A stretch of 64,000 nucleotides of DNA from Isoetes taiwanensis (lineage: Eukaryota; Streptophyta; Lycopodiopsida; Isoetales; Isoetaceae), in assembly GCA_021234155.1 (NCBI GenBank), contig JAJEKV010000026.1:16730283-16794282 (forward strand), read 5' to 3'. The notes below the pieces were generated by a model, which saw only the letters and a list, made by a program, of their open reading frames with translations, made no database searches and was not told where the DNA came from. Every line of letters begins with the position of its first letter. The stretch's first letter is position 1. Positions 33,690-62,768 of the stretch are shown piece by piece. A program made the position numbers and the translations under genes.

Positions 33690-34185
33690 TTGCTTCCACT
33701 TCTCCCCCCCCTCTCCATTGCCGCCATTGAATCTCCACCTGCTGCCCCTGCCAACAAATAGGAATTGTGCCTCCGCATAGTCTCCTGGAATTGTCGGGCT
33801 TCCCATGGCAGAAGGGAGATAGTCTCAACTTAGTTGTCGCAGACATGGATCTCATCTTCCTCATGGAAACATGGGAGCATGCAGGACACAGGACCTGACT
33901 TGCCAGGATACCAGCACTACTCAATCTTCAATGATTGCACAGGAAAGCGGGGGCATGGGGGGGGTTGCCTGCTACTACCGAACAACCTTGGCACAATCAA
34001 TCTCCTTGTTCAAGACAGACAAGCACAACCGATACCTGTGGGTGCGTGTGCAAAACTGCAGTAGCAGACCCCTCTTTGTGGCAGCCTGCTACTTTCCACA
34101 TGCAGAAAGCAACTTCTATCACACCCACTCGGATGTGGATAGGCTGGACCCCTATGTCTATCTATATGATGACATACAGCAGCAT
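33690..34185 (+). mobile_element. LINE, 5' part with endonuclease start
   Basis: The plus-strand frame reads LRIVSWNCR (endonuclease motif I), DMDLIFLMETWEH (the catalytic Glu region) and GGVACYYRTTLAQSI, then LFVAACYFPHAES. This is the start of an APE-type endonuclease of a non-LTR retrotransposon. A small frameshift lies near 33830. It is cut at 34185 by gypsy element 2 and resumes at 46318. No ORF1 is seen, so the LINE may be 5'-truncated. Confidence 0.8.
34181..34185. repeat. Target duplication AGCAT (left)
   Basis: Matches 46318-46322. The LINE endonuclease frame continues from one to the other. Confidence 0.85.
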
Positions 34186-36368
34186 TGTGACGCTCCCAGA
34201 ACATATACGTCACTCGGACGTATACATACGGGGACTTCCCCCTCCCATGGCGACCAACTCGCCACGAGTAGGGCCCTCCATCTAACTCGGGCCATCTATA
34301 GAGAGATGCTCGAGTGAAGGACACAGAGGGGTCATTCGGCCCACGCCTTCAATGGGGCTCCTATGTCGCGAAAGCGTGAATACAAGGTTAGCACGCAGCA
34401 TAATCATATCATAAAATACCACCACGAGGGGTGGCACATCCATCCAAGTGACAACAACAAAGAATATGCATTTAATACTAGGGAAAACACCCCAAACCCA
34501 GGGTTCTACCCCGGCTCAGACTCCAGTGAGGATCGACTGACGGTTAGGTCTCAAGAGATCAGCAGACTGAATCTTGACATGGCGTTGGCTGGCATAGAAC
34601 ATCGGCTAGGGTTGTCCACTCCATCCGCCCCTCCTGTGCACACTTTGCAGATGAGTACTCAAGGTATCACCCTTCGAGCCTACTCCAGGGTTCATGACGC
34701 CCCGGTCTGATGAGGCAGGTCAGGGAAGTGTCCCCTTCCAGGATCACAGTGGTTCCATGGGTGAGCTAGAGAACACGTGCCGCATCAGCGACCCCCGCAT
34801 CCATACCCGACTTACTCACCCTAACTCTACTCAAAGTACAGGATGCCCCATACGGGTCACACCTCTGCACCCAGGGAGTGTCAGACCCATACCCGGCCCT
34901 CTACGTGACCAGCTATCAGGCCTAGCCCACTGTAGGAGTCCCAGGAGCCTTGTATGTTCGTGCAAGACCCCACCCCCACTTCACCACTGCGTCCCTTCTC
35001 TGGTGCTAAGCAATCCCATAGCATCCATGACTCGGTGGTCTCTTGTGCACAGGCCGCAAGAATTGGAATTAAAGGAGCTACTAGGAGCATACTAAAGCAT
35101 ATGGCATAGAGGTCTCTACCCCCCTCTAATCCCTGCTCTATGGAAGTTTAACAGAGCTACTGTCATACACACATCCATCCATCCATCATAAACATAATCC
35201 ATAATTGAAATGTAATCTTAACTACCAAAGAAGGGTTAATTCTAAGTGAGAACAACTAGAGAAGGCTCAAAGACTTAACTGAAGCGCTAGACTTAAAGAT
35301 ATAACTAGATTATCTACTAACCCGAGTTCCAGCTTGATCCATTGTCATGAGGCGCCTCCATCTCTCAGAATCTGGGTGTTCAGCAACCACTGGGGTGATC
35401 AGCAACAGTTCCAAGTACTTGGGCGCTCAGCTGCTCCTTCTCCTGGGTCAATTTTGGGTGAAATGGGGGTAGTGATCCACCTTGATGGCTCAAATTAGCA
35501 TTCCCCATGCTGGCCAATCGAGTTTGGCCAGGTGGCGCCTTCCCAAATCATTAATTGACTTAATTAACCCACTTAGATATTAATTCCTTAATTATAGGTT
35601 ATTATAGGGGTGCTGGCGCCTTGGCGCAGGGCTGGAGGATGCACCTCCTCCGAGCGACTTCTCTGAGCGTTTTCCCTGAGCGCCGCCTTCCCTGAGCGCC
35701 TGGACTTCTGGCGCTTGGGCTTATTGGATGCGTTGGTTTTCAGCTTCAGCGGTGCCCTCACGGTCACCGCCTTTCTGCAGATCGTTGCTATGGGGGTTTT
35801 GGGACTCTACCTGTTTCTGGGGCAGCTCTTATGGTCTAGTGGTTTGATCGAGTTACTCCAGGGGGTCGGCACCAGGATCTCTGCATCAGCATCTATTTGC
35901 CCTGGTTTCAGTGAGAGGATGGAGGTTTAGCGCGTGCATGAGTCCGCACCAGTACTCGGCACCTAGCTGTGAAGAGGTTACGGTTCGGGGGCGTTTGTTG
36001 AAGTTCTGTTTGTTGGAGGTATGCTTGTTGCTTTTTGCAGCAGCATAGCTTTTTGGATCTGTGGTCATCATGGCAACGGTTTTTCCCCAGTGGGGTTTTT
36101 TAATCCGGGCCATGGTGCTCACGGGCTTCGGCCCATGCAATGTATTTTTGTTTTCTTTGTACTTGTGGTCGCATGTCCTTCGTGACGCTGCCTTTGTGGT
36201 GCGACGTAAAAATATACTTCCTTCCTTCCTTCCTTCCTTAATAATTAAATTAGCATAGCTAATTTAATCCATTTTAGGTCAACCCCCTAGGTTACAATAC
36301 CCCATGGTGGCGTGGGTGATGTGTTAGTATATTTATACGTATACCGTATAAATACTTAGAACGTCACA
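34186..36368 (-). repeat. 3' LTR of gypsy element 2 (2,183 bp)
   Basis: Starts TGTGACGCTCC on the plus strand and ends ACGTCACA at 36368, so both ends read TGTGACG from outside. It is adjacent to a purine tract on the element strand (36369-36383). The interior has no coding evidence. A run of CTTC units lies near 36220. Confidence 0.8.
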
Positions 36369-36941: not shown

Positions 36942-39900
36942 CTACCCCTCTACTGGATGATGCCGGCGCATCAAGCCTTCAAGCTTACCGCCGGGAGCGG
37001 GGTTGATAGCATCGTTGATGGTGCGGCCCTGAGATTCTCGCATGAAGTCCGGATAGTGCTTCTCAAGGTCTATCTTCATCACCCACGTAGCATCCTCAGC
37101 TGGCAAGTGTTTCCACTTAACCAAATATTGTAGCATTTGACTCCTCCTGGTCTGCTTATAGGCCCGATCAAGAAGAGCTTCAGGCACTATATCTAGATGC
37201 TCTTCTATCATTTCAAGAAGGGTGGGTGTATCCAAGATCTCCTCTGGATCTGGGGTGTGTTGTTTCAGAAGACTTACGTGAAAGACCTTGTGGATCTTCA
37301 AGCGGGGTGGCAAATCCAAGCGATATGCCTGTTCTCCAACACGTTCAGTGATTTTGAACGGCCCAGCCCATCTGGGTGCTAGCTTCTTGCAGTTACCAAT
37401 CTTAAGCTTGGCTTGGTTTACCTTAATCTTAAGCCAAACCGATTCACCCACCTGGAAGACTCGTGGGGTTCTGTGTTTATCTGCTACACTCTTCTGACGA
37501 CTGCGTGCAGCCAATAAGTAACCACAGACTTCTTCAACCAAAGCTTGCATTTCCAAGAGAAGTTGTTGAGAAACCTCCACTTTAGAAACGAGGTTATGCC
37601 ATGTGTCTGGAGTAAGGCATTGATAACCATAATTTATCATGAAGGGAGACATTCTTGAAGATTCTTGTTTCATACTGTTATAGGCAAATTCGACCAGATA
37701 AATATAGTCAGCCCATTGTGATTGCTTACTGCACACATAACTTCGTAGCATGTCCTCGATAATACGATTGGTGCGCTCTGTCTGACCATCCGTCTGAGGA
37801 TGATATGTCGTACTCATAGCAAGTTTGGTCTGGATGGTGGCAAAGAAATCTTTCCAGAATGCACTTACGAATTTGGGGTCCCTGTCGGATACAATAACTC
37901 GTGGCATTCCGTGCAACCTGAAGATCTCCTTTGCAAATAGCAGAGCGGTATCGAAGGCTGTATCGGTGGTATGACATGGCAAGAAATGAGCCATTTTCGA
38001 CAATTTGTCGACCACTACCATCAACGCATCATATCCACGGAGAGTACGTGGAAGGCTCACAATGAAATCCATGGTTATGACTTCCCACTTGGCATTGGGC
38101 ACATCCCGGAGAGGTTGCAACTCTCCCGGAATCCTTAGTTGCTCAGCCTTGGTTTATTGACACACTTGACACTGCTTAATGTACCTGGCAATGTCCTTCT
38201 TCATCGAAGGCCAACTGGAGCAGATCTTAAAGTACGTCTTCATAAAACCTGCATGTCCAGCTATAGGGCTATTGTGCCTGTCATGGAGAATTAGCTTACG
38301 TACTCCTGAAGTCTCAGGTACACACAACTTATCCTTGTAATACAACAAGTTGCCCTCTTTCTTATAGGAACAGAAAGCTTCACGTTCTTTATCTGTGCGT
38401 GCCTCCTTAGCCAGACTATCCCAAACATCACGGAACTCGGGATCTGTGGCCAAAGTCTGTTCTATCTGTTTTCCAAACTCACTAGTGAGTGTGGAAATTG
38501 CATTACAATGGGTTCGGGTTACCAAGGGATGGCGTGACAATGCATCCGCAACCACATTGTGCTTCCCAGGCTTAGACGTAATCTCAAAATCATATTCCTC
38601 CAGAAATTCCATCCATCTTCTCTGACAGAGGTTGAGATTCGGCTGGGTGGATAGGTAACGGAGACTCTGATGATCCGTATCAAGTTGAAATCTGCTACCA
38701 AGAAGGTAGTGTCTCCATATACGCAGAGCGCGGACAACGGCTAACAACTCCTGATCATGGGTAGGGTATCGCTGTTCAGTCTCATTCATTTTCTTTGAAT
38801 CATATGCAATAACCCTCCCCTCTTCCATTAGGACTCCACCGGTAGCAATCTTACTGGCATCCGTTGCCACCAGTTTATCCTTTTCAGGATCGGGCAATGT
38901 GAGGACTGGTGCTGATGTTAAAGCATCCTTAAGTTTCTGGAAACTTCCCTGGACCTTTGCTTTCCAATGCTCAATCCAATCCTTCACTTTCTCATGCTTT
39001 ATAAGATCAGTAAGCGGTGCTGCAATCTTTGCAAAATCCTTAACAAATTTCCGGTAATATCCTGCCAATCCTAAGAAACTTCGGACCTCTGAAACATTAC
39101 CTGGAATGGGCCAATCCTTTACTGCCTCTATCTTTGCTGGATCTGTAGCAATTCCCTCTGCTGAAATGACGTGTCCCAAATAATCCACCTTCGGAGTGGC
39201 AAACTTGCACTTAGAGAACTTGGCAAAGAGCTGGTGACGTCTTAGCTTTTGTAGGGCCAACCGAAGATGTTTCTCATGCTCCTCCAGAGTCTTACTATAG
39301 ATGAGAATGTCGTCAAAGAAAATAACAACAAAATCATCCAAGTATTGTCGGAAGGCATCATTCATCAATCGCATAAAAGTTGCGAGGGCATTAGTTAATC
39401 CAAAAGGCATAACAGTAAACTCATAATGCCCATATCTAGTACGAAAGGCAGATTTATGGATGTCCTCCTCTTTAATTCTTATCTGATGATATCCGGAGCA
39501 TAAGTCAATCTTTGGGAAGTACTTGGCCCCTTGCAACTGATCCATAAGGTCATCTGCTCTGGGCAAAGCATAGCGATTCTTGATGGTATGCTTATTAAGT
39601 TGCCGATAATCAATACACATCCTCAAGGAGCCATCCTTCTTTTTGACAAAAAGGATAGGAGCGCCAAAAGGCGAAACACTAGGCCGAATGAAGCCTAGGT
39701 TTAGTAGCTCCTGAAGTTGCTTCCTAAGCTCTGCCAATTCAGGGGGGCTCATACGGTACGGGGCCTTACTGGTAGGCTTAGTACCTGGTTCCAAAACTAT
39801 CTCACATTCCACCCCTCTGAATGGAGGAAGTTTCTGGATCTCGTCTGGGAAGAGATCATTAAATTCCCTAAGAAGACTAGCAATGCTCTCTGTCAATGCG

Positions 39901-40691
39901 TCAACTACTTGCTTCTGTTTAGCATCTGACTCAATAGATGCAAGTCTGATGACGCAAAGTAGCTTATCTTTGCGTACAGCCTTAGTTAGCTGTCTGATGG
40001 ACATAGACTGCATAATAGGGTTTAATGGATCACCTTTTATAGTTACGCGGGCTCCATTAGCTGCGTCGAAGGTAACCTCCCGCTTTTCGCAGTCGATATT
40101 GGCTTTTGCAGATGCCAAAAATTCCATACCGACAATCAGATCATATTTGCCAATATCCATTAACTCGGCACCCAATGCAACTGGTGCACCTTGCAGCTGC
40201 ATTTTAAGGTTAATGCGTCGGCCATGAGTATGTCTGATTTTTCCACTGGCTAACGTGACAGGTTTTGGTCGGGACCTCAAAGTCTCAAGCTGCAATACCT
40301 GGGCCATTCTAGGAGAAGCAAAATTATGTGTACTTCCCGTATTCATAAGAATTATGAAAGGCTTACTGTCTACTTGACCTATGGTGGAAATAACGGCAGG
40401 CTGACTTTCAGCATTGCCGGTTTCTATGGCTGCAAGGATATGAGACGCACCGTGAATATACTCAGGAGCCTCCTCCTCGACAGGTAGAGTAGACTCGAGA
40501 TCGTCCCAATCGAGGTCGCCCATGGCCAGCTGGGCAGTCTGTGTGACATAAGGGCAATTCTGCATGAAGTGCCCAGGCCGCATACACCTGTAACATGCTT
40601 TGTCTCTGCGTAGCTGTTCTCGGGCCTCTTTGGGAATAGACTGTAAGAGGTTCCGAACTTCCTTACCGACATTGTTCGGTTTATCGGGCAT
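36942..40691 (-). CDS. pol: Pol of gypsy element 2: protease, RT, RNase H, integrase, chromodomain
   Basis: One frame of about 1,250 codons, broken by a single TAA at 38154-38156. In order: a zinc knuckle [14 protein letters not shown]; a protease box reading MNTGSTHNF (Asn where the catalytic Asp is expected); RT with [29 protein letters not shown] and FFDDILIYS; RNase H with [14 protein letters not shown] and DTDHQSLRY; integrase zinc region H-x-H...CQVC; DDE core with VSDRDPKF and TDGQTERTN; and a C-terminal chromodomain-like segment ([15 protein letters not shown]). These are enzymes of the Ty3/gypsy chromovirus group. The element copy is therefore defective by protease substitution and nonsense codon. 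The zinc knuckle normally belongs to Gag and marks the gag-pol junction. Confidence 0.92.
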
Positions 40692-40692
40692 G

Positions 40693-41660
40693 TTAAAGGT
40701 GACTTTCTTTTCCTGGCGGCCGTAAGAGTTCTGCTGAGAGGGTTCCCGGACTTGGTGAACGGCCCTTATAAGGAGTGTATGGGCGTGGCTGGGAGTAAGA
40801 TGCTAGACGTTGGTACTGGCTTCGCGGGGTGTCTTCTTCAAGGCTCAATGCCTTAGCCTCAGCCTCTGCAACTAACTTCGGGTCTATGGCCTTAACCATT
40901 CGTTTAATTGATGGGGCCAACCCTTCAATATGGCCCTCCACCGCCCTCTTTTCATTCATACCCGGCACATATAGCCACAGGTGCATGAATTCATCTGTGT
41001 AGGCCTGAACTGACATACCCTTTTGCTCCAACACTTTTTAAACTTGCATCTGCTTCGGTTTAGATGCTTGGCTCTAGCATAGCCCTTCCACCAAATACGA
41101 GCAGCCCCTGTAAGGTTTGTAGTGGCAACCTTTCCTGTATCTTTCTCCGTCATCCCATAGGATTTGCTAAACTCCTTCATCTCGTCCAACCAAGACTCTG
41201 CATTCAGCCCGCCTCTAGATTTCCCATCAAACTGGGCCAGTTTCCTTTTTTTCCATATACTGGTTATGGCCGTGTCAACCATCTTACGGTACTCCTTGTC
41301 CCGGTGCTTTGCATGGTCACCAGATGATACAGACGACTCAGAGGACTCAGAAGTGGCTGATTGTGAGGAGGTGGCACTATCCCTTGAGGAACTTCGATGG
41401 CGTTCAAAATGGTGCCTCCTTTGTGCGGGTACAGGGCTTGGTTCAGGTGCAAGTGGCTGCGGTGGTGGGGGACTTGGCGGTAACGGAGGTAACTCCGGTC
41501 CATCCTCCTGCGCATGCTGCGGTGGGTTGGCATTCAACAAATAAGTTTGCAGCTCCACTAACTGCCGCTTGATCAACAGGAGTTCCTGTTCAGGCGTTAA
41601 TCTGCTAGCACCTGAGGGTGTCTGCCACGAGGCGTTACGTGCACCGTCTATATTGACCAT
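40693..41660 (-). CDS. gag: Gag of gypsy element 2 (frameshifted)
   Basis: The N-terminal part (41660-40956) has Pro/Ser-rich stretches and [21 protein letters not shown]. It then has the capsid-like region [16 protein letters not shown] with [15 protein letters not shown]. The frame shifts near 41030 to [18 protein letters not shown] and [16 protein letters not shown], completing the usual plant gypsy Gag core. A second shift leads to the zinc knuckle in the pol frame. It forms the virus-like particle shell in intact relatives. Confidence 0.85.
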
Positions 41661-41932
41661 AAGAAGGTGTAAAGAGAGTTATTGGAATACCACGGGTTAC
41701 AAAGAAGATTATCTTAATTAGTGCTAGGAAATAATAATAAAGACAGTAAAAAGAAAAGTCTTTATTGTAGCTTCAAGTAACAAGTACATTGGATACATAT
41801 CCTTAGCCGAAGCTTAAGGTCATACAGTACAACAAACAGTAATTACACACATATTTAGCCATAAGGCTGTACATTTAACAACTCTTAGAGAACACATACT
41901 TAGCCATACAAGAAAAACTGAAGAGATTAAGA

Positions 41933-42421
41933 CTAGGGCTGCGCAAAAGGGTAAAGGATGGAATAGCGGACGCTCTCCCGTACGGCCCTCACTACCTTAT
42001 AGCGAGCCCATGCCTGAATAATGACATGCTGGTAGTCCATGGTGGGACTAATGATGAGGAGATTAAAAAGATCTCGTAGCGCAAAGAAAATCTGCCATAA
42101 GTGCTCATTAGCATCGGCATAAGCTTCATGCCTTGTCATCTCCCAATAATCCCAAGTTCGTCGAAGAGTTTGCTGCAAATGTTCGAAGGCACGTTCTCGG
42201 AGAATGTTGACTATCTCTAATCCTTTAGCTGGGTCATAAGGTTCTCCTTCCATAACGAGTTCCCTCTCTTCGGAGTCATCATCTCGATCGGGATACTCAC
42301 CATATCGTTGACCGTAGTCTTGGTCGGGAGGTCCTGGATCGTCCCTTCGGATGTCATTGGTGATTCTTTCCTCAATCTCTGCAAGATCATAATCTGCAAG
42401 ACGGCAAGAATGAATATACAA
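41933..42421 (-). CDS. Gypsy element 2, ORF E (162 codons)
   Basis: An acidic N-terminal half (EERITNDIRRDDPGPPD, DRDDDSEERE) is followed by a helical C-terminal half with several Trp and Tyr (LRRTWDYWEMTRHEAYADA, ARYKVVRAVRESVRYSIL). It is unrecognised. It is the last extra ORF before gag, separated from it by about 270 bp. No lesion is seen. Confidence 0.5.
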   Translation of the reverse strand: MYIHSCRLADYDLAEIEERITNDIRRDDPGPPDQDYGQRYGEYPDRDDDSEERELVMEGEPYDPAKGLEIVNILRERAFEHLQQTLRRTWDYWEMTRHEAYADANEHLWQIFFALRDLFNLLIISPTMDYQHVIIQAWARYKVVRAVRESVRYSILYPFAQP

Positions 42422-42615
42422 TGTGGAACGATTTCTTACACTCTAAACTCTAATAGATACAAGGAAGTATCATGGGAAAAAAAGAAACAATTTAATTGTA
42501 TTCATCAATACCATAATCATAAGTCCTAAAAAGGTGGTACATATAATGTAGGATGGCTATAATGCCAAATCAAAATTTACAACTATACACAGTACAAGAT
42601 GCGTAATAAAAACGT

Positions 42616-44060
42616 CTAAGAACTAGGAGTTTCCTCTTCGTCCATAGACTGAGGAGGTGGTGGCGGCGGTCGATGACGTAGCAAAGTCACCCCGGGGTCT
42701 ACTGTGGCAGCTGCAATGGAGGCAACCTCTGGCGGATAGGCGGTAGCCAATGGGGCCGCCGTAAGGAGTTTCATACTCATCCATAGTGCGATGTCCTGCC
42801 CCAATGCAGTGAGGGCAAGATCCCGTCGAATGAGTACGTAAGTAAGCGTGCGATAGGGAAGCTTCTTGTGCCCTGCCAATGTGGAAAGAGCACGGAGGGT
42901 CCACCATGAAGCCTCGGCCTCTGGCCCTAAGTCCCGGGCTACAAAAAGTACTTGCCCCTGCCGAAAAGCTGATAAGAAGAAGCGGGTGAGGTGATTCCCC
43001 AACACCTTCCCTTGCGGGGTCTCCGATGTGGCAACCTCCTTATCTAAGTCCATAGGGACTTCTTCTTCCTTGAGTTCCTCCTGCTCTTCCTTCAAATGAG
43101 CAGGGTTATGGTATAGATCCTCTCCCTCCTCATCCGAACCGGAGGGAACTTCGACCATATTAATATTTGGGACATGAGGCCCCATAGCTGTAAAGGCATC
43201 CGGTGAAGGCTGGGATGGTGGATCCTGTGACACCAATTCCCTAAGCCATAACAAGGTTTCAGCCGGCTCTATGGTCTCCTGATGAAATTGGAGTAGTTGT
43301 TGTACCTCCCGGGGAAGGTCAATGGGCGTAAAATCAATGAAATCATACATACAGTACTCTGCTAACTCATAGAGTACATGATCCTTGCGTCAGCGCTTAA
43401 ACCCGGCCACCATGTGATAAGTCCAGATGATATCATCCAAGAGAAGATACTCTTGCCCTTGGTGATACACAACTGGAAGGGCGTCTAGCCCGGACAAGCG
43501 TGCAGCTTTTCTCGACGTGGTGGCATCTCCTCTGCCAACTGCTTCCAACGGGTGAAGTCACCCATACCTATGTGCTCATCCTCTTCCTCCTCGGAAGACT
43601 CGGGAAGTTTGCCTTTCTCTGCCGGCAATGTCTCATCCTCAACATACTGATCCATGAGGATGGCTAGGGGAAAGGCAATTTCAAGATATTGTCGCCCCTG
43701 GTGCTGAACAACTGGCAGCTGTTTACCCCATCTAAGCTTGTCCTTCAGCACATCATATGCGTGGGTGTCACCCCCTAGCATATCTCAGACTACATCCCGT
43801 TCTAGATACAACCGGGGAGGTTCCCCAAAAGGAGTACACAGAGGGAGCATCTCCTCTGTGTAAAACTGTAGGAATCCGGCATAATCTGGATGCCGCTGCA
43901 TATTAGAGATGAGGTCGAGGCGCTGGCATAGAAAGGGCTGTAAAAGGTCAAAGGGCACCTTTGGATCCCAATGCTCTCCATCCTGGTACCATGCAAGTAG
44001 ATCGATGGCAGCCATGGGCGCTGGAAGAGAGGAGGGAGGAAGATAAACGGATATAGACAA
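42616..44060 (-). CDS. Gypsy element 2, ORF C/D (about 480 codons, disrupted)
   Basis: Three consecutive pieces read as one protein: 44060-43785, then past a single TGA to 43485, then past one frameshift and another TGA to 42616. It has an internal repeat of the form LPVVxHQGxxYL (near 43700 and 43470), a Ser/Glu-rich acidic stretch, another acidic stretch (EEQEELKEEEVPMDLD), and a helical end (ASWWTLRALSTLAGHKKL). I do not recognise a family. A weak likeness of the last 90 residues to a histone-type helix pattern was considered and not accepted. Confidence 0.5.
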
Positions 44061-44219: not shown

Positions 44220-44938
44220 CTAAGGACGCTCTCCCCAGATCCTGCGGGCCAGGGCCAAATCTTTTGGCATTATAGTGACTCTCTTTGCGTGGATAGCGCA
44301 AAGATTTGCATCACCAAAAAGTGCCACCAAGTAGGCTTCTGCAGCCTCTTGAAGTGCTAGAATGGCAAAAGTCTAGAAGCGGAGGTCGGTTTTGAACTTC
44401 GGCTATCTCCCGAACTAACCTTTGAAAAGGCAGCTTCCGTATCAGAAGTTGCGTGGTCTTCTGGAACTTACGGATCTCCCGTAAGGCCACCGGGTCTGTA
44501 CCGGTGGGGCTTCCTCGGTGGAGCAGGGTTGGGAGTCGGGCCCCTTTGCCGTGGTATCGTCTTGGCCCCAACAACAGGACGGGGCCGGGAGGCATCCACC
44601 CGCTCCTGCCTCCGGCTGGAACTCGCGTTCTTCCCAAAAGCTCCGACAACCTTCAACTTCTCCTTGTACTGGCTGCCGGACTTTCGGGCTACGGCTTTTC
44701 TCCGGTGTTTAATGGGCGTCCTGTCCGTCTGGTTTGGCCCCTGCTCAGTCCCTGGTCCCCCATTACCCTGCTGGTCCTGCTGTTCTTGTCGGGCCTTCTC
44801 CTCTTTTTCCCTTTGGATTCTTTCCTGTTCCTCCCGGAACTCTCGAGCTCTCCTGAGGTCTTCTTCAACCTCAACAAACCGCCGTTCCACAATGCGGCGA
44901 AGGAGTTCAGCGTGGTATCGGTTGGGTCGCTGGCTCAT
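44220..44938 (-). CDS. Gypsy element 2, ORF B: coiled coil plus histone H3 core (lesioned)
   Basis: Starts at the ATG at 44938. The first 60 residues are a highly charged coiled coil ([20 protein letters not shown]). A basic, Pro-rich linker follows, ending in [12 protein letters not shown] (44489-44512), which is the H3 sequence just before the alpha-N helix. Then come [51 protein letters not shown] and [15 protein letters not shown] to the stop at 44220. These cover alpha-N, alpha-1, loop 1, alpha-2 and alpha-3 of histone H3, with loop 1 of canonical length. Three lesions break it: about 5 bases lost near 44487, 2 lost near 44397, and a TAG at 44373-44375. The coiled coil and the start of the H3 domain are in one uninterrupted frame, so this is a fusion and not a separate insertion. 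The natural H3 tail is absent. Confidence 0.85.
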
Positions 44939-44944
44939 ATCAAT

Positions 44945-45478
44945 CTAGATCGTCGTCAAATAATCCAGACTGATGTCAGGAATCTCTCCCCACATGAAGC
45001 TCTGGGAAGCTTCATGCCACTCATATGGGGGAAGCTCGATTGCCCTGCCATCAATGACGGCGACTCCATCTCCTAGATACCGATATTCTCGACCTCGAGC
45101 CGCCGTATCGGCTCGTTCTACCTCCCTGCGGTCATCCTCCCTGGCCAAGTTCCGGATACGGTCGGCCTCCGTTCTTATGTCCTCCTCCTCAGTGTGTCCC
45201 TCACATTCAGGAGGGTAAAATTTTATCAACACCATAACCAAGTCAGGTTGCTCGACTATGGTATAAGGAAGCTGTCGGAGATTCAATCTAACCAAAAACG
45301 GCTCCGAGTAATGGTAGATTGGATAGGGTATCCTAGCGTCGTTAGCAAATCTGTTTACCAACTCATCCAGAAGTATATCAATCAGGGCAGGGTCAGTAGC
45401 CATATGCTGTGCGATTAAAGCATAAATTTGGGCTATGGTGAGGGTAGCGGGGTCCACGGTACTCTTGGTGGTGGCCAT
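44945..45478 (-). CDS. Gypsy element 2, ORF A (178 codons)
   Basis: Intact from an ATG at 45478 to a stop at 44945, seven bases before the start of ORF B. The N-terminal half is helical and hydrophobic (IAQIYALIAQHMATD, LVNRFANDARIPYPIYHY). The second half is acidic/basic (DIRTEADRIRNLAREDDRR). No domain is recognised. The tight spacing to ORF B suggests that both are translated from one RNA, by reinitiation or after splicing. Confidence 0.6.
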   Translation of the reverse strand: MATTKSTVDPATLTIAQIYALIAQHMATDPALIDILLDELVNRFANDARIPYPIYHYSEPFLVRLNLRQLPYTIVEQPDLVMVLIKFYPPECEGHTEEEDIRTEADRIRNLAREDDRREVERADTAARGREYRYLGDGVAVIDGRAIELPPYEWHEASQSFMWGEIPDISLDYLTTI

Positions 45479-46142: not shown

Positions 46143-46154
46143 GCTCTGATACCA
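46143..46154 (-). promoter_or_regulatory. Primer-binding site, initiator tRNA-Met type
   Basis: On the minus strand TGGTATCAGAGC, exactly complementary to the 3' end of plant initiator tRNA-Met, one base inside the LTR edge. Confidence 0.9.
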
Positions 46155-46155
46155 C

Positions 46156-46317
46156 TGTGACGCTCCCTGAATATATACGACACCCGGCCGTATACATACG
46201 GGGACTTTCCCCTCCCATGGCAACCATCTCGCCATGCATGGCGAGATGGTTGCCATGGGAGGGGAAAGTCCCCGTATGTATACGGCCGGGTGTCGTATAT
46301 ATTCAGGGAGCCTCACA
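46156..46317. repeat. 162-bp near-perfect palindrome in place of the 5' LTR
   Basis: 46156-46236 is the terminal 81 bp of the LTR. 46237-46317 is its reverse complement with one mismatch (sixth base from the outside). The centre is GCCATG|CATGGC. The primer site abuts one end and the target duplication the other, so it stands exactly where a 2.2-kb LTR should be. Confidence 0.9.
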
Positions 46318-46322
46318 AGCAT
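46318..46322. repeat. Target duplication AGCAT (right)
   Basis: Matches 34181-34185. It is followed directly by LINE sequence coding KQLGSIILLGDFNARTG. Confidence 0.85.
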
Positions 46323-47180
46323 AAGCAGTTGGGCAGTATCATACTCCTTGGAGACTTCAATGCGCGCACTGGGGTAGAACAACCCATGAGATTTGATCCC
46401 TTGACTGATGATATATTGCAGTTGCATCCTGCAGAAGGAGCTTGGCCACGGACATCAGATGACAATCAGGTCACGCGCTATGGTCGACAGTTGCTTTTGC
46501 TCTGTAGTATCTTTGACCTGGTAATCTGCAATGGACTAGTACAGTGGCCTTCCACCCGCAAGAGCACTTGTAGGCAGGAAAACCAGGGGGCGGATCTAGT
46601 GTGGTGGACTATATGCTGGTGCCTGAGCAGGATATGCATGTCGTCAAGCACTTTCAGGTTGTGCGAACCCCCGGTGCAACAACTCCTCACATGCCTCAGC
46701 TGCGATTGGATTATGAACATGCAGGGGCTTATGCCCAGATTCTTATAGATGACCTGGCAGAAATTTTGCAATATCAACAGACAGGCCGGCTGACTGATGT
46801 GCTTAGGACTGCGGCAGAGAGGTGCTTTGGGATAAGCCGCCCGCGACGGACCTCCAGGAACACAACCTTCCCACGTAATCAATAGTTTGATGCAGAGTGC
46901 AAAGGAACACAAACGCTGGCTCCGCCAAGTCACGGACCACGCTTTAAGCCCACATGCGGTCGGGCGACTGCGCATCTTCCTTAAAGCTAAGAAAGCCGTA
47001 CATTGCAACATCAAAGGGAAATGTTTTACCTCCCGGAACGTCATCCCGGACCTTAGGCGAAGGGTTCTTAGAAAGCGGTCTACAGCCCCACGGGGGAATA
47101 TCACTCCGAAAGCGGTGGAGACAATACTTGCAACAACTATCTCGACCCTCGGGGTGCACATGCGGCATTACCCTTGCAAG
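46318..47180 (+). CDS. LINE, endonuclease remainder and linker (frameshifted)
   Basis: Continues the endonuclease after the gypsy insertion: SIILLGDFNARTG is the conserved LxGDFN motif, and YGRQLLLLCSIFDLVICNG follows. A frame change near 46600 leads to VVDYMLVPEQD, which contains the SxxDYxL-like motif near the end of APE endonucleases, then a linker toward RT. Confidence 0.8.
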
Positions 47181-48590
47181 AAGGCCCGGTCTTTGGAAAT
47201 CACGAATCCGGGGCGTGGAACAAGGCTTGCGGCGCCTTGCCAATGGGAAAGCCCCGGACTTGGATGGTATGCGGGTAGAATTGCTTAAAGTGGGCGGGGC
47301 CGTCCATAATACCGGTCTTTGATCGCCTTGTTCAACAAGGCATTACAGAAAGGTTTCCCGCTGCAGTGGACTAATAGCAGAGTTGTTCCCATATATAAGG
47401 CAGATGACCCACACTGCCCAGCCAATTACCGAACAATCATGGTCAGTTCGGTGTTTGCAAAATTGCTTGCTGGGATTCTCGAAAGAAAGCGGTTGACGGG
47501 CCGGGCGAGGCGTGAGAGGTGCGGGCCCTAACCCAAAAGGAGATTGAGACCTCGGCACTCAACCATTGACCACATCTTCACGTTGCGAACTCTGATTGAA
47601 GACAGCAGGAACCGCCGTCAGGATCTATATTGTTGCTTTGTGGATTTTGCGAAGGCGTTTGACACTGTGCCTCGGGAAAAACTATGGGCAAGACTGCAAG
47701 AACTAGGGGTTCCTGTAGATTTGCAGAATGCAGTGTACAGGCTATACGAAAGATGCTCGGGTCGGTTGCAGCAAACAAGCCAACCATTTGATAGTAGTAT
47801 CGGGGTTCGTCAGGGATGCCCTCTCTCCCCAACATTGTTTGGGCTTTACATTGATCAATTGGAGAGCTGGCTTGCTGATAATTGGGGCGATGGAGCTCAC
47901 CTTCTCTATCAGATCATTAGACAGTTAATATATGCTGATGATGTGGACCTCCTAGCTTACACACCAGCAGACATGCAACGACATCTCGATGCCCTGGACA
48001 CATTCTGCCAAGCGACTGATATGCGCGTCAACCTGGCCAAGACTAAGGTGGTTTTCATATCATCTTCACGTCAGCCGAGGGTCCCCTCCTTCAGTTACCG
48101 AGGCCAAAATGTGGAAGTTGCATCCACATACAAATATTTGGGAGTGGAGTTTCCTTCTACTATGCACTGGGACACATCCATACGGCTACGAGTGACGGCA
48201 AGCTGGAAGGCACTATATGCAATGCAAAACAATAGTCATAGAGCAGAGTTGATGATTGGACCATCAGTCACACCTGTTCAAGGTCTTAGTAGAGCCTGTC
48301 CTTTTATACGGGGTGGAAGTATGGGGCCCAGTAGTATCACTTGCTACTTGGAATGACTTGGAGCAGGTCCAGAAAGCCTTCTTAGTACGAGCACTAGGGG
48401 TGAAGTCCACAGTCCCATATCAAATTCTACTGCAGGAGACAGGATTCTTGCCTCTTCAGAGGGCGGCTCTTGATCGCCACATTGTCTATTTTCAGAAGGT
48501 GGTCAATATGGACGATGCTCGTCTCCCTAAACTAGCTTATATCATGGCAATGGAGCCGCAACGCCTCAAGGCCTGCTGGAGGGTTGGCTA
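47181..48590 (+). CDS. LINE reverse transcriptase (frameshifted)
   Basis: GKAPDLDGMRVELLK and NYRTIMVSSVFAKLL open the fingers. DLYCCFVDFAKAFDTVPR carries catalytic Asp A. GVRQGCPLSPTLFGLYID is motif B. LIYADDVDLLAY (about 47927-47960) is the YADD catalytic box. YKYLGVEF is motif E. A frame change near 48250 leads to the thumb-like VLLYGVEVWGPV and TWNDLEQVQKAFL. This is the non-LTR enzyme that primes cDNA at nicked target DNA. The 813-bp frame 47544-48356 is free of stops. Confidence 0.9.
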
Positions 48591-49150
48591 GATGGAATGT
48601 GCAGGAGCACAGGTGCATACATGTGCAAACAGAGGCAGATCGCCATAGCTTGAGGCAATATCTTGATGCTTGCTTCCTCAGCAAGCTTTGGGATGCCAAT
48701 GCCCTTGAACAGGTCAAGACAGCACACTACCAGCGCCACATAAATTCCACATTGGAACGAGGCCCGCAATGCTACCTGCGTACCCACTTGCCCATGAAAA
48801 GGCGCAGACTCATTGCCTCCATTCGCACAGGGGCACATCATCTTCGAATTGAGACGGGCAGATGGATTGGTGAGCCATGCCAGGACAAACTCTGTCAATG
48901 CTGCCAAATGGGAGTCATTGAGGATGAATCTCATACCCTTCAAAGTTGCCCAGCATATGATCAAATTCGGACACGATATGCTGAGTTGGTCAGGCCTGGC
49001 CAGCCGTTACATGTGACATTGAGCACAACATCCGTACGGATGCGGGATCATATCTTCAAGAGATTATGGACATGCGAGATCAGCTATGTCCTCGGGCACA
49101 CACTTGACATGTATATATACATTGATGTATACTTGTACAGTTTGACAGCA
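48591..49150 (+). CDS. LINE C-terminal region with zinc motif
   Basis: A basic segment (MKRRRLIASIRTGAHHLRIETGRW) is followed by CQCCQMGVIEDESHTLQSC. This is the CCHC motif typical of LINE ORF2 C-termini (near 48890-48950). The frame continues open through the hairpin region at 49151-49224. Confidence 0.75.
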
Positions 49151-49224
49151 TTCTTATTACTGCCATGGGTTTTCCCTCGAAAACCCTTCGGGGCGGGGGT
49201 TTTTTTTAACCCGGACAGTAATAA
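49151..49224 (+). ncRNA. Structured 3' element of the LINE
   Basis: Ten-bp outer stem CTTATTACTG (49151-49160) with CAGTAATAAG (49215-49224). Inside are GGGTTTTC-CCTC-GAAAACCC, the alternative CCC-TTCG-GGG, and GGGTT-T-run-AACCC. The element end with GATAAAAAAATCATTCTC lies 80 bp further on. LINE reverse transcriptases of the stringent type recognise such 3' stem-loops; this role is inferred. Confidence 0.6.
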
Positions 49225-49309
49225 GTTTGCTGCGCTCCTTATGGGTCCCATAGGCCGATTGGCCTCAGTGGACGATAAAAAAATCATTCTCATTCTCATT
49301 TATTTGGGC

Positions 49310-49973
49310 TTTAGTTCAAAATTGGAACTTATGTATTTGCAAACTAAGTTGGTCTTTCTGCATGCATTAAAGTAGCCAAGACGGCTGGCGACATTGACTT
49401 GACATAGCGAAAGGGTTATGGTCCCTCAATTGATGTCTATGTTGTCATTTGTACAAGAATGCTATTTGTGATACCTCCACACGGAATGATTTCTTCGTTA
49501 ATGGCTTCAGGCACTGTGTAAAGAAGGAAGCCAAGCCATCTTTGTTTATGCTCAATATTACATCGAAGGGATATACGAGGTTATGTAGTTTACAATGTTC
49601 GTTACATTTTATATGGCTATATGTCTTCATTGAACACGAAAGTACGTCAACCATTTCAAATGCTTTTGCAAGGTAAAGAGCGTGCTACTCAACTCAATTG
49701 CAACTTCACAACAAATCCAACATCAGTAAATCAACTAAAAAAATGGTTCTGACACAAATCCATCACTCATTGGACATCCTATTATTATATGATTGACATT
49801 AATAAAAGGGTCCAACTTCATAGGGTTTGTACCAAAGAAATTTTCGTCGCTTTGGCCATCGCGATAAATTTTTGTGGTGTTAGTGCAAACTGTTATTTGT
49901 GGTAAAAACCCACTTGCAATTATAATGATGTTATTCCTTATATCCAAAATGTCATGCGCTTTTCTTGCATTCT
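49310..49973. other. No supported gene
   Basis: AT-rich sequence after the LINE end. Short frames only. Confidence 0.4.
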
Positions 49974-51439: not shown

Positions 51440-52238
51440 AACAGGACGCCCGCTTGCTTGCCGTGTTAGTCTTTTTTTCTCTTTTTTCTTATTTTTTTTA
51501 AAGCCCGATTTTTTCCTCAGAAAGGTACGTGTTTGTTTTAGGGGAAAGCATCAATCAAGAATATTTTAAAAAACATATTTGTAGGAGAATTATATATGTT
51601 AGATTAGATAAACAAAGATTTATTCTAGTAGAGATACATGGGAAACATTAAAGGGTGCACTTGGAATTTGGGCAACTCTTTTCCTTAACAAAGGAAAAAA
51701 AAACGTCTGGGCACAATGCAGGAATCAGATAAAATAAAAAAGTTTAAGAGCCTGCCCTGCATGTCTAGGCCAAGAAGATGCCAACAGAGAAGCAATGTTT
51801 GGTAGAATGGTGCCCTAATTTAGCCTCAATGTTTGGTAGAATGGTGCCCTAATACAACCTCAAGACAATCAACGGCAAACTAACCACCCACTAACGCCAC
51901 ATAACGCAACAAAGATTTCCACTCTAGACTCTCAAGTGGTACAACATGGCAACTGGCTCGCTGGTTCTGTCTCTGGAATGGGAAAAGAAGCAACATGGCT
52001 CCGCTCAACATGTCGCTTGCAGTTGCCATGTTGTGGCGGATGGAAAAACCGCTCCCGATGCTGCCATACATCCACCAGCATAAAACGGCATATTCTATCT
52101 CCCTAGGGTTTTGCCTTCAAACATTGGTAGCAAAAATTGGTAGTCTTCAAAATCTTTCATAATTGAACGGTGTAAAGAAATTCCTCCTATACTTGGAACC
52201 AACAAACTGAATCGGCCCCCTTCTTGCCACATCCAGCT
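51440..52238. other. Upstream region of the SRR1-like gene
   Basis: No coding sequence. A direct repeat of GTTTGGTAGAATGGTGCCCTAAT occurs at about 51799 and 51833. No clear TATA box is seen close to the ATG. Confidence 0.4.
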
Positions 52239-53243
52239 ATGGCGACGGCGGCCACCAGCAGACGGAGCGCCTCTTCCTCTGATTTTGCCCATGATCCTAA
52301 ACAGTCATGGACTGTTGTTTGTCGCCGGAAATTCAGACGCCAACCCAAATGCCCAGATGCTAAAAACGTTCCAATCGGTTTGGGTTCGCAGAAATGCAAT
52401 GTGGGTTTAGAAGATGACTTCGATGATGCAAGAAGGGTCCTTTTGTTGGAACAGATCGATAAATCTCTGGAGAAGGTAAAATCTTCTCCCTTCTTTGCTA
52501 AGTTTTTGGAGCAAATGCAGAGTCTCAGGTCTTTAAATGCGTTGATCCCCGGAACCTGCTCAGACTTTGAAAGCAAGGGAGTAGACTCAGTGTCGAATTT
52601 TCCCGATTCTGAAGAAAATGGTATGAAGGGGAGCAAAGTAGGGTTAGAGAAAATTTTACATCAGCTCGAGTCAAAAAAAGGTGAAGGAGTGGATTTGGTA
52701 TTGTATGGCATTGGAAGCATTGCAAATTCTGAAGTTTCTAGATGCCAATTTTCCCTTGCATTATTATTGAGAAAAAACTTACCCGCTATTGAAAGGATGT
52801 TAGTTTATGATCCAATTTTATCAGCTTTGGAACAAAGAGTATTAGAGGCATTTGACTGCTCAATGCTCTTATATAATGAACAGGGTGGCAGATATGTGAG
52901 CAAGCCAACCCTCTTCTATATGCCTCATTGTGAGGCTGAGTTATATGACAATCTTCTTAGAGCAAATTGGAATCCTGACAGTTTAGGAAAAATTGCTGTC
53001 TTGGGGAACAGTTTCAAGCAGTATCGAGATATGTGGCCACTTCCTGGTTCTAATATGAAGTCCAAACAGCTTGGACACTTATTGAAAATTCAGAATAATA
53101 CTGAGGAACATGCCATTGAAGACTTTTCTTTTCCTCTTCAGTCTGCATTTAATGATATGAGTTGGCATTTTTTCTCTTTTACCGATGGCCTCAAACCTGC
53201 AGCCGGATTCCAAGGAGCATTTTTTGAATGTGATTCTTCATAA
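52239..53243 (+). CDS. SRR1: SRR1-like protein (intact, intronless)
   Basis: 334 codons from the ATG at 52239. A longer reading from 52224 would start at TTG and is rejected. The Ser/Ala-rich start leads to SWTVVCRRKFRR and a coiled region (VLLLEQIDKSLEKVKSSPF). The SRR1 domain begins at VDLVLYGIGSIANSEVSRC, continues with LVYDPILSALEQRVLEAF, and ends with FYMPHCEAELYDNLLRANW and IAVLGNSFKQY. Arabidopsis SRR1 acts in phytochrome B signalling and the circadian clock, and yeast and animal members in haem-related or transcription control; the molecular reaction is not known. The frame is clean, unlike its neighbours, and no transposon lies in it. It is the best-preserved host gene of the window. 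Confidence 0.9.
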   Translation: MATAATSRRSASSSDFAHDPKQSWTVVCRRKFRRQPKCPDAKNVPIGLGSQKCNVGLEDDFDDARRVLLLEQIDKSLEKVKSSPFFAKFLEQMQSLRSLNALIPGTCSDFESKGVDSVSNFPDSEENGMKGSKVGLEKILHQLESKKGEGVDLVLYGIGSIANSEVSRCQFSLALLLRKNLPAIERMLVYDPILSALEQRVLEAFDCSMLLYNEQGGRYVSKPTLFYMPHCEAELYDNLLRANWNPDSLGKIAVLGNSFKQYRDMWPLPGSNMKSKQLGHLLKIQNNTEEHAIEDFSFPLQSAFNDMSWHFFSFTDGLKPAAGFQGAFFECDSS

Positions 53244-59154: not shown

Positions 59155-61003
59155 AGTTACCAAATACGGATATGGCATGCCAAAAAAAAAAACAAATACG
59201 GAATACGAAATACGGATACGAAAAATATGGCAAAGTACTCAAAACAAACAACTGTGCTTCTAAGAATGAACAACATATTTTGTACATTGAGATTCCAAAT
59301 ATGTTATAGATTAGGCTTTAAAACATCTAGTAATGTTCAAATAAAACACAAGTTTAAGTTATATGAAAATATCATAGAACATAGTTTATAGAACACTTGT
59401 AGTCATGACAAGAGTACCTAAGATAAACAATGAGAAACAATGAGCATAGCATTTCCAAATCCGTATTTTAATTATACAAATGCTTTCTAGCATGTTCAGG
59501 GCAGCAGAGAAGAACCCTTTCTAAATCTAATCCATAAATAATTGACACTAATGAATAAAATCAGAAGCATTTCAAAAAAACCTCAGAAACTATCATCCTT
59601 CCAACATTCTTAAAGAAAAAGAGAGCCTCAGCCCAAAAGGTCCAATGGAGGTAGAGATGACTTTATCTTCACAGTTAAGGAGGACCAGGGTAAATAAATA
59701 ATGTGAAGAAAGATCTACAATAGAAATAAAGTGCCCTGATCCAAGGGAATACTAGTTTCCAAAAGAAAAATTGATGTGTGACACAAACACATAAGCAGTC
59801 ATTTCAAAGGTTAATATTCAAGTAGCTATCTCTTCGTCAGTTGAAATATTTAGACAAACACTCAAATACGGCCTTCTCTTTGTGGGAGAGCTCAGGGTTT
59901 AGCATGTATTTGAGAAATGAAGCTGCTGCAAATCATGTCAGATAAATTGATTTGCTGCTGGTTCAACTCCATGTGGTATATTTGGAGTATAATGCTGGAG
60001 TTTTCCTTGGATTTGAGCATTCCTTTTTATGGTGTATAATGCTGGAGTTTTCCTTGGATTCGGGCTTTTGCTAATGCATGGATTGTCATTTCTGCCAAGG
60101 GAAGACTGGGACTAAGCATTCTGCACATGATCCAAAAGAAAAAAACAGAATTGGCCTATAATTTGCAGCCAATATGTTTATAATCTGTGCCATGGCAGCC
60201 TCGACCTGTACATCTTCTCTTCATATACATATTAAGATCACTAAAGGACTGAGCAATTCTTAACTTTGATCTGAAGCAAATTTGAGATCTTCAAACTAGT
60301 GTGTGCAAACGTCTCTTAAAGCAAAGAGATGCATTGGATATTGCTCTTAAGTAGGACAAACCAGTAAGACAGACCAGTAAGTAAGAGATGCATTGGAAAT
60401 TGCAAATGCAAATGGAATGGAAGGATTTTTTACCTGCTTAAGAATATAATGAAAATTTGTGACTGTAAGAATCCAAATCCGACCTCTAGTAGTCTGAATC
60501 TGAATCTGATACGTGCTTTGGGTTGGGCGACCTAGGCTCACAGCCTCAGGGCTCTGGTCGTGAATGCAAAACCCGTTCAGCCCTTGAAGATAAATATGTG
60601 AGTGATGCAAAAGATAATTGTTTCTGGTGGTTTGCAGTTGTATCAGACGCTCACCTGGCTGTGCTATATTTAGAAACAGAGAAGAAGTGCTGCTTGCTAT
60701 GCGTAGAAACGAGAGTGTTTGCTCATTGCAATCGGACGCCGCAATCGCATTCTGGCCGGTCGCACTTCCACGGTTCGACCTGTGTTAGCAGGGGATGGAC
60801 ACGAACACGGTGTTAGGTTTGTTGGTCAGGAGATTTAAGCCAAAAATGGCATTAAAAAACGCCCTATACGGCGTATTTGCAAAAAAACAACGGCGTATTT
60901 GGCATCCGTTTTTGCCCCACACCGTTGTCCGTATTTCATACGGTTTTTTTTCTAAATCCGTATTTTCCGTATTATACGAAAAATACGGCCGTTTTTGGTA
61001 ACC
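59155..61003. mobile_element. 1.85-kb TIR element at the broken end of the RCL1-like gene
   Basis: The left end GTTACCAAATACGG and right end CCGTTTTTGGTAAC are inverted. Both ends are rich in CGTATTT/AAATACG words. No transposase is seen. Target duplication is not evident. The right 1.18 kb (59826-61003) is the first arm of a long inverted repeat. Confidence 0.55.
59826..61003. repeat. Long inverted repeat, arm 1
   Basis: It starts TAGCTATCTCTTCGTC and ends CGTTTTTGGTAACCATG. It pairs with 62768-61575 over about 1.18 kb with moderate divergence and several short indels. Confidence 0.85.
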
Positions 61004-61575: not shown

Positions 61576-62768
61576 CCGTTTTTGGTAACCATAACGTTTT
61601 TGGCCGTTTTTTCGTATAATACGGAAAATACGGATTTAGAAAAAAAACCGTATGAAATACGGACAACGGTGTGGGGCAAAAACGGATGCCAAATACGCCG
61701 TTGTTTTTTTGCAAATACGCCGTATAGGGCGTTTTTTAATGCCATTTTTGGCTTAAATCTCCTGACCAACAAACCTAACACCGTGTTCGTGTCCATCCCC
61801 TGCTAACACAGGTCGAACCGCGGAAGTGCGACCGCCGAATCGCGATTAAGGCGTCCGATTGCAATGAGCAAACACTCTCGCTTTCACGCGATAGCAAGCA
61901 AAGACTTCTTCTCTTTTCTAAATATAGCACGGCCAGTGAGCGCCCCGATACAACCGCAAACCACCGTAAACAATTATCTTTTGCATCACTCACATATTTA
62001 TCTTCAAGGGTCGAACGGGTTTTGCATTCACGACCCGAGCCCCGAGGGTCGTGAGCCTAGGTCGCCCAACCCAAAGCACGACGATCGATCGATTCGACTA
62101 CTAGAGGTCGGATTTGGATTCTTACAATCCACAAATTTTCATTATATTCTTAAGCGGTAAAAATCCTTCCATTCCATTTGCATTTGCAATTTCCAATGCA
62201 TCTCTTACTTCTTTCTGTCTTCTTTGGTTTGTCCTACTTAAGAGCAATATCCAATGCATCTCTTTGCTTTAAGAGACGTTTGCACACACTAGTTTGAAGA
62301 TCTCAAATTTGCTTCGGATCAAAGTTAAGAATTGCTCATCCTTTTAGTGATCTTAATATGTATATGAAGAGAAGATGTACAGTCGAGGCTGCCATGGCAA
62401 TGTTATAAACATATTGGCTGCAAATTATAGGCCAATTCTTTTTTCTTTTGGATCATGTGCGAGAATGCTTAGTCCCATCTTCCCTTGGCGTAAAATGACA
62501 ATCCATGCATTAGCAAAAGCCCTAATCCAAGGAAAACTCCAAAGATTATACACCATAAAAAGGAATGCTCAAATCCAAGGAAAACTCCAAAGATTATACT
62601 CCAAATATACCACATGGAGTTGAACCAAAGAAAGAAATCAATTTATCCGACATGATTTGCGGCAGCTTCATTTCTCAAATACATGCTAAACCCCGAGCTC
62701 TCCCACAAAGAGAAGGCCGTATTTGAGTGTTTGTCTAAATATTTCAACCGACGAAGAGATAGCTACTC
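61575..62768. repeat. Long inverted repeat, arm 2
   Basis: Reverse-complement relative of 59826-61003. At its inner edge the last 15 bp (CCGTTTTTGGTAACC) are turned round relative to arm 1. This copy is richer in CG at sites where arm 1 has TG, CA or CTG. Confidence 0.85.

Follow-up and report, generated by a model that had tools for sequence, protein, structure and literature searches.

A histone H3 core under purifying selection in the leader protein of a chromodomain gypsy retrotransposon lineage of Isoetes taiwanensis

The element and its H3 core in the window

The analysed stretch of DNA (hereafter the window) covers 64,000 nucleotides of the Isoetes taiwanensis genome. Its minus strand carries a chromodomain gypsy element, running from 46236 down to 34186, with the following features:

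46156..46236, minus strand: 5' LTR remnant, last 81 bases, cut short where an inverted copy adjoins it (46237-46317)
46143..46154, minus strand: primer-binding match TGGTATCAGAGC, a 12-mer
44948..45478, minus strand: ORF A, in intact copies the N-terminal domain of the same protein
44945..44947, minus strand: in-frame stop splitting ORF A from ORF B in the window copy
44468..44938, minus strand: ORF B, 156 codons: charged part, basic tail and the H3 core up to its eighth residue
44220..44512, minus strand: histone H3 core, H3 positions 37-135, three pieces in three frames
44489-44512, minus strand: H3 piece 1, KPHRYRPG, in frame with ORF B
44398-44490, minus strand: H3 piece 2, 31 aa, matching solved H3 chains at 3.5e-12
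44220-44396, minus strand: H3 piece 3, reading FKTDLRF up to an in-frame stop and continuing beyond it
43488..44015, minus strand: ORF C, with an internal stop
42619..43389, minus strand: ORF D
41936..42442, minus strand: ORF E, single-sequence model of low confidence (pLDDT 53)
40696..41678, minus strand: gag, with two frame breaks
36945..40802, minus strand: pol, with a weak zinc knuckle, protease, RT, RNase H, integrase and chromodomain
34186..36368, minus strand: 3' LTR, TGTGACG..CGTCACA, 2.2 kb

The LTR evidence consisted of the 3' LTR and the primer match, the 5' LTR being reduced to its 81 bases. The primer match is presumably of the initiator tRNA-Met type; a tRNA scan came back empty. 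Pol carried PF00078, PF17917, PF17921, PF00665 and PF00385 in the order of a chromovirus (Ty3/gypsy), two matches lying below the cut-off: zf-CCHC (0.017) and rve PF00665 (32.2 bits, cut-off 32.6). A single in-frame stop was found in pol, at 38154-38156. The best listed pol relatives were 35-59% identical and came mostly from seed plants and green algae, with none near among the matches listed.

The leader between the primer site and gag was 4.5 kb long and held ORFs A to E. ORF A and ORF B share one frame, and intact copies read through the stop site at 44945-44947. For ORF A, a Pfam search gave no family, and a single-sequence structure model had low confidence (pLDDT 52). A protein search with ORF B, limited to 86-273 aa, a range that excludes the intact protein, returned no relative at E <= 0.1; relatives were present as frames in three other regions of the same genome (L050-L052). 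Against viral contigs, ORF B had no match, and the single match of ORF A (43 residues at 40%) was taken as chance.

Other observations concern the accessory frames and the surroundings of the element. In neighbouring frames of the minus strand, LPVVYHQGQEYL (43393-43557) and LPVVQHQGRQYL (43488-43784) point to duplication of a module in ORF C/D. The LTR ends at 34183-34264 and 46153-46234 were 89% identical over 82 bases, despite one pol lesion in ~1250 codons, and the 5' LTR end may come from another copy. Positions 46156-46317 formed an almost perfect 162-base palindrome, in which the LTR end meets an inverted copy of itself; it is either a real inversion or an assembly fold-back. Beyond it lay LINE-like ORFs (46290-49375, plus strand). 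The window also contained a host-type ORF with an SRR1 domain (52224-53243; PF07985, 2.8e-41) and a ~1.2 kb inverted repeat, 94% identical (59821-60990 and 61602-62767).

An earlier note on this DNA had described a minus-strand frame passing from a charged coiled coil into KPHRYRPG and then, with three lesions, through an H3 core, all between the primer site and gag of a gypsy element. Every one of these parts was present. ORF B lies between the primer site (46143-46154) and gag (41678-40696), and the core, read through with X at the joints, matched PF00125 at 1.7e-38. The fusion to H3 stands, and the charged part is probably a coiled coil, as judged by composition alone. The lesions in the core are frame breaks at ~44489-44490 and 44397 and an in-frame stop at 44373-44375. 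With the stop between ORF A and ORF B (44945-44947) as a fourth lesion, one absent from the earlier note, the window copy of the H3-bearing ORF is dead, broken in four places.

The third H3 stretch, taken as a 50-aa piece, matched solved H3 chains at 7.5e-21. The window core agreed with plant H3.3 at 82 of the 96 residues compared, and its loop 1 had the length found in H3, which speaks against an angiosperm-type CENH3. Three lesions fell within 97 codons of the H3 part, compared with one stop in pol (~1250 codons) and two frame breaks in gag (~330 codons). This is more per codon than in gag-pol (binomial 0.003, with assumed codon counts and assumed frames for ORFs C-E). A passenger or pseudogene reading, drawn from the window by this lesion density and the lack of database relatives, was dropped after the whole-genome search.

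On PF00125 the window core scored 130.1 bits, and plant H3.3 itself 148.8. Neutral decay was simulated from plant H3.3 as the ancestor, with an equal number of changes. The simulated cores scored 106.9-128.4 bits and none of the 38 reached the window's value, so that the substitutions in the window copy were milder than neutral change. By a cruder BLOSUM62 sum, the score of the window core was reached by 104 and 109 of 3000 neutral simulations.

Copies across the genome and selection on the H3 part

The profile search covered the whole genome (1,658,258,908 bases, 1110 contigs). For the histone family it gave 8705 first-look candidates, of which 150 were scored. Fifteen of these began at profile position 2, like whole H3 genes, and the other 135 began further in, many inside frames of 400-494 codons; five of the 150 had an internal stop. 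The eight host H3 genes read (L002-L009) were normal H3 with a MARTKQTARKS tail. A first sample of 40 loci (L010-L049) was hand-picked among the 150 scored Pfam matches, with long frames favoured. In each of the 40, one open frame (367-494 codons) carried the whole H3 core at its C-terminal end; in L017 this frame continued for ~20 codons past the core.

Seven copies of this first ORF (ORF1) were examined whole and had ORF A, the charged part, the basic tail and then the core, with L010 beginning inside ORF A. Three intact ORF1 sequences matched PF00125 at 2.6e-38 to 3.2e-42. By sequence the fold is of the H3 type, the 60 best solved matches shown being all H3. The element cores are not free proteins of ~136 aa with an ARTKQTARKS tail, as histone H3 is. 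The central proposal of the earlier note, an H3 fold encoded by a gypsy element itself, holds; intact copies keep the full core in one frame.

By core residues, the 40 copies fell into the sequence groups S1 (25), S2 (8), S3 (2), S4 (2) and S6 (2), plus one other. The window copy is of group S3: over 95 columns, it is 97% identical in its core to L045. In 10-kb contexts from S1 (L050) and S2 (L051 and L052), ORF A, ORF B with H3, ORFs C, D and E, and gag followed in the order of the window. A pol match was present in L050 (82%) and in L051 (71%), and absent within the 10 kb of L052. The exact primer 12-mer was found upstream of ORF1 in L050, and was absent in L051 and L052.

Copies chosen by H3 score cannot show whether H3 is always present, and we therefore sampled by ORF A alone. 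This genome search gave 3350 first-look candidates, 150 of which were scored. From the 149 other ORF A copies, 40 were taken by rank (2-21, then about every sixth of 22-136, counted by hand). The earlier note would have taken copies without the H3 part as a refutation, yet 39 of the 40 had 50 or more H3 residues in the same position, ~0.9-1.0 kb away from the ORF A start; the remaining copy had 48. A single open frame from ORF A to H3 was kept in 12 of the 40, one of them the 48-residue copy, and the other 28 had stops or frame breaks between ORF A and the end of H3. Both samples show a repeated architecture in element copies: ORF A, charged part, tail and H3 core.

The H3 core is under strong purifying selection in the element lineage. 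In the ORF A sample, the median omega (dN/dS) of the core was 0.049 (mean dN 0.031, dS 0.631) and none was >=1. This figure comes from 401 usable pairs out of 406 among 29 of the 40 copies, gapless and of at least 90 codons, with 11 dropped and three stops among the 29. ORF A had a higher omega, 0.097 (37 of 40 copies, 548 of 666 pairs usable). In the hand-picked 40 the median for the core was 0.041 and the maximum 0.255 (412 of 780 pairs usable, the others being near-identical or saturated); choice by Pfam score lowers dN there, a bias from which the ORF A sample is free. All values are pairwise Nei-Gojobori counts. The pairs are non-independent and carry no P-value, because the copies share ancestry, and the inclusion of broken copies raises omega.

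By region, omega in the 25 S1 copies was 0.140 for the N-terminal domain, 0.236 for the coil, 0.144 for the tail and 0.043 for H3. The corresponding values in the eight S2 copies were 0.135, 0.090, 0.138 and 0.014. H3 was the most constrained region in both groups. Among the hand-picked 40, 56 of the 98 core columns were invariant and 55 of these equalled host H3, including R69, R72, R83, C110, H113, R116, T118, K122, D123, L126, R129 and I130, positions that form the H3-H3 bundle and the contacts with DNA. Single departures at such positions also occurred in the ORF A sample, which includes many broken copies (e.g., L055).

Origin of the cores and likeness to CENH3

The element cores of several sequence groups appear to share common descent. 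In a tree of a chosen subset of the 40 copies and the window (with 13 database rows assigned to no group), 20 element cores lay on one side of a branch with support 86/95, recovered in 85% of 200 bootstrap trees. Support for this branch was moderate, and most inner branches were weak. Compared with eight host H3 genes (out of 15 full-length H3 matches listed, the comparison covering genes other than intron-bearing H3.3), seven element cores differed at 0.80-1.00 of synonymous sites and at 0.09-0.14 of other sites. The H3 part is thus no near-copy of the host genes read; by the earlier note, a match to a single host H3 gene at pseudogene-level identity would have refuted its proposal of an element-borne fold. 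The synonymous differences are near saturation, from which we infer that the capture or captures are old. In 11 copies counted, 80-88 of the 98 core residues were identical to host H3. L90 was common to host H3 and all 40 element cores, and E77 to host H3 and 33 of the 40. Probably the core was acquired once, from an H3 gene.

CENH3 is defined by a longer loop 1 than that of H3. An insertion of this type was absent in the window core and in the 40 hand-picked copies. The window core was identical to Arabidopsis CENH3 at 57 of 95 residues, and plant H3.3 was similar (56 of 98). The S1 cores (among L010-L044) mostly carry TEPLI and E102, residues also of grass CENH3, present here through either convergence or descent. 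Either H3 or CENH3 may have been the source of the element core.

The tails gave a mixed result. A KHP- or RHP-type tail was found in 32 of the 40 hand-picked copies, its significance varying with group and peptide. The score of the sunflower CENH3 N-terminal peptide against the S1 tails was reached by 0 (L010) and 1 (L031) of 1000 shuffles, and that of the wheat peptide by 4 and 16, figures that are the best among ten copies by four published CENH3 peptides. For L045 and L048, of the window's group, sunflower and wheat scores were reached by 300-917 of 1000 shuffles, and for the poplar peptide the ten copies' tails gave 105-946. CENH3 tails start with MARTKH, according to an excerpt of PMC9842635. 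The window tail has a similar RTPIKH; its CENH3 peptide scores were reached by 471-1413 of 2000 shuffles, and its score against the H3 tail by 945 of 2000.

The MARTKH pattern occurred at 69 sites in the genome, compared with six in a reversed control, and no host CENH3 was recognised among the 40 of these sites that were read. Four of the 40 (L101, L118, L120 and L124) begin MARTKHTARK or MARTKHTVRK and belong to a second group of ORFs. In L135 (around L124), one frame starts with an H3-type tail, passes through a long charged region and ends in a divergent histone fold (PF00125 2.1e-22), 52% identical to the L045 core over 89 residues. The best solved matches of this second-group core were H3. 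It contains EIRHFQ and LIPRAAF, which together with the MARTKH start presumably resemble Arabidopsis CENH3. In L133 (around L118), the tail and histone ends are in different frames and the fold is cut.

In both L135 and L134, the region around L101, a relative of the window lineage's ORF C sits close by (5e-8 and 2e-7 against L050, in a comparison with 11 sequences), and L133 holds one that looks similar to ORF C. The relatives in L134 and L135 suggest that the arrangement of a histone-bearing first ORF followed by ORF C may predate the window lineage. We infer that the second-group elements are gypsy.

Possible use of the fusion protein and known systems

We favour, with a probability of about 0.72, the reading that the leader protein, made of ORF A, coil, tail and H3, holds a captured H3 which has been kept under selection and is used at chromatin. 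The lineage would have taken the core from an H3 gene, probably once, and then kept it under strong purifying selection. The C-terminal core quite probably forms pairs with host H4 and is able to join nucleosomes or bind to them, since the histone-contact and DNA-contact residues are unchanged. The fusion protein may then tie element complexes to chromatin, with the H3 end incorporated in a nucleosome or attached to one while the N-terminal part faces the element's own proteins, as a tether working beside the integrase chromodomain. Such tethering ranks first for us among the possible uses, as the partners to which the core is joined, a domain and a charged part, were found in the company of element ORFs only; we hold it tentatively, at somewhat below even odds. 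The chances appear evenly balanced that a lineage of plant LTR retrotransposons adopted a histone H3 as a lasting component of its machinery, and that both groups of leader ORFs, one with the foreign N-terminal domain and one with the MARTKHTARK tail and CENH3-like fold, supply components of nucleosomes by which element DNA is placed in chromatin or protected there.

A functionless captured host H3, now a pseudogene, would fit the window copy with its four breaks, and fungal passengers of this kind, H3 borne by transposable elements, are known (PMC6710886, excerpt). Strong purifying selection across groups, found also in copies chosen without H3, and the milder than neutral substitutions of the window copy (130.1 bits, 0 of 38 simulated) make this reading highly improbable. 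At the level of the family, the low dN/dS refutes the captured gene without selection that the earlier note had allowed for; that reading holds for the window copy alone, which is dead. An anti-silencing use is unlikely, though better placed: an element H3 with a replaced tail would keep K9 and K27 silencing marks off nucleosomes on element DNA. The nucleosome-holding core residues are kept, and the ARKS motif is absent from the 65 residues before the core in 38 of the 40 Pfam-chosen copies. Some S1 tails read RTKHPSTGGKS, which by eye can be lined up with the host RTK-QTARK-STGGK minus its K9 segment (the aligner chose otherwise). However, the overall likeness of the tails to the host H3 tail did not stand out clearly from shuffles, 37 to 700 of 1000 of which reached it in ten copies. 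ARKS is present in the other two copies, L045 and L048 of the window's group, and in the window ORF B, and the second group retains an N-terminal MARTKHTARK.

Steering of the elements to centromeres by a core derived from or imitating CENH3 seems doubtful. The idea draws on the S1 tails of L010 and L031 that match sunflower and wheat CENH3 peptides, and on the MARTKH start, EIRHFQ and LIPRAAF of the second group. Against it, loop 1 has the H3 length, the window core is no nearer Arabidopsis CENH3 than plant H3.3 is, and the best solved matches are H3 even for the second-group core. The tail match also fails in L045 and L048, in the window tail and with the poplar peptide. We consider it improbable that the core and host H4 serve to compact or protect element cDNA before integration, a packaging role with which the preserved fold and DNA-contact residues and the position of ORF1 in the leader, ahead of gag, would be consistent.

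Retrotransposons read chromatin, through chromodomains, or target it. Our results suggest that this element lineage uses the host DNA-packaging system in a way undescribed for retrotransposons in the literature searched, as a retrotransposon codes for a component of the nucleosome core, under selection. If this is true, the lineage is a natural system in which to ask how elements select or change their chromatin; it would allow tests of whether element H3 enters host nucleosomes, and raises the question of whether histone variants pass between genomes and mobile elements. In the open-access literature, the scope of our search (subscription papers and preprints lay outside it), no histone-coding LTR retrotransposon was found. 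The word "histone" was absent from the main text of a review on extra ORFs of plant LTR elements (PMC7264820), and likewise from a review on gene capture by plant transposable elements (PMC13317346) and from the Isoetes genome paper (PMC8566536).

The lineage shares features with several known systems. CENH3/CENP-A likewise has an H3-type core behind a foreign tail, and part of the element copies have an RTKHP-like tail, but the element core has an H3-length loop 1, is encoded by the element and forms the end of a long fusion protein. Orchid Ty3/gypsy elements keep an ORF for an AlkB-type m6A demethylase (PMC9289625, excerpt) and are likewise a plant gypsy lineage with a host-type extra ORF; as far as that excerpt goes, theirs is an enzyme domain, with Tat-type features and without a histone. 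In chromoviruses the integrase chromodomain reads histone marks (PMC2864245, excerpt). The window element is a chromovirus, with the chromodomain at the integrase end; whereas known chromoviruses, on the account in that excerpt, read histones, the Isoetes lineage codes for one besides.

An H3 borne by a transposable element has itself a precedent in fungi. An H3-like gene (H3L) is carried by hAT DNA transposons in Pyrenophora tritici-repentis (PMC3538342, excerpt), and H3-carrying hAT elements occur in Pseudocercospora fijiensis and relatives (PMC6710886, excerpt). There too, by these excerpts, an H3 sequence gains copies in the host genome through a mobile element. The fungal carrier is a DNA transposon in which the H3-like sequence is an ORF of its own, broken by RIP in P. 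fijiensis. In place of a hAT transposase and terminal inverted repeats, the Isoetes element has RT, integrase and an LTR; it is an LTR retrotransposon whose core is fused to an element protein and has been selected over large synonymous distances. What appears new, within the literature searched, is the histone as a selected domain of a retrotransposon protein.
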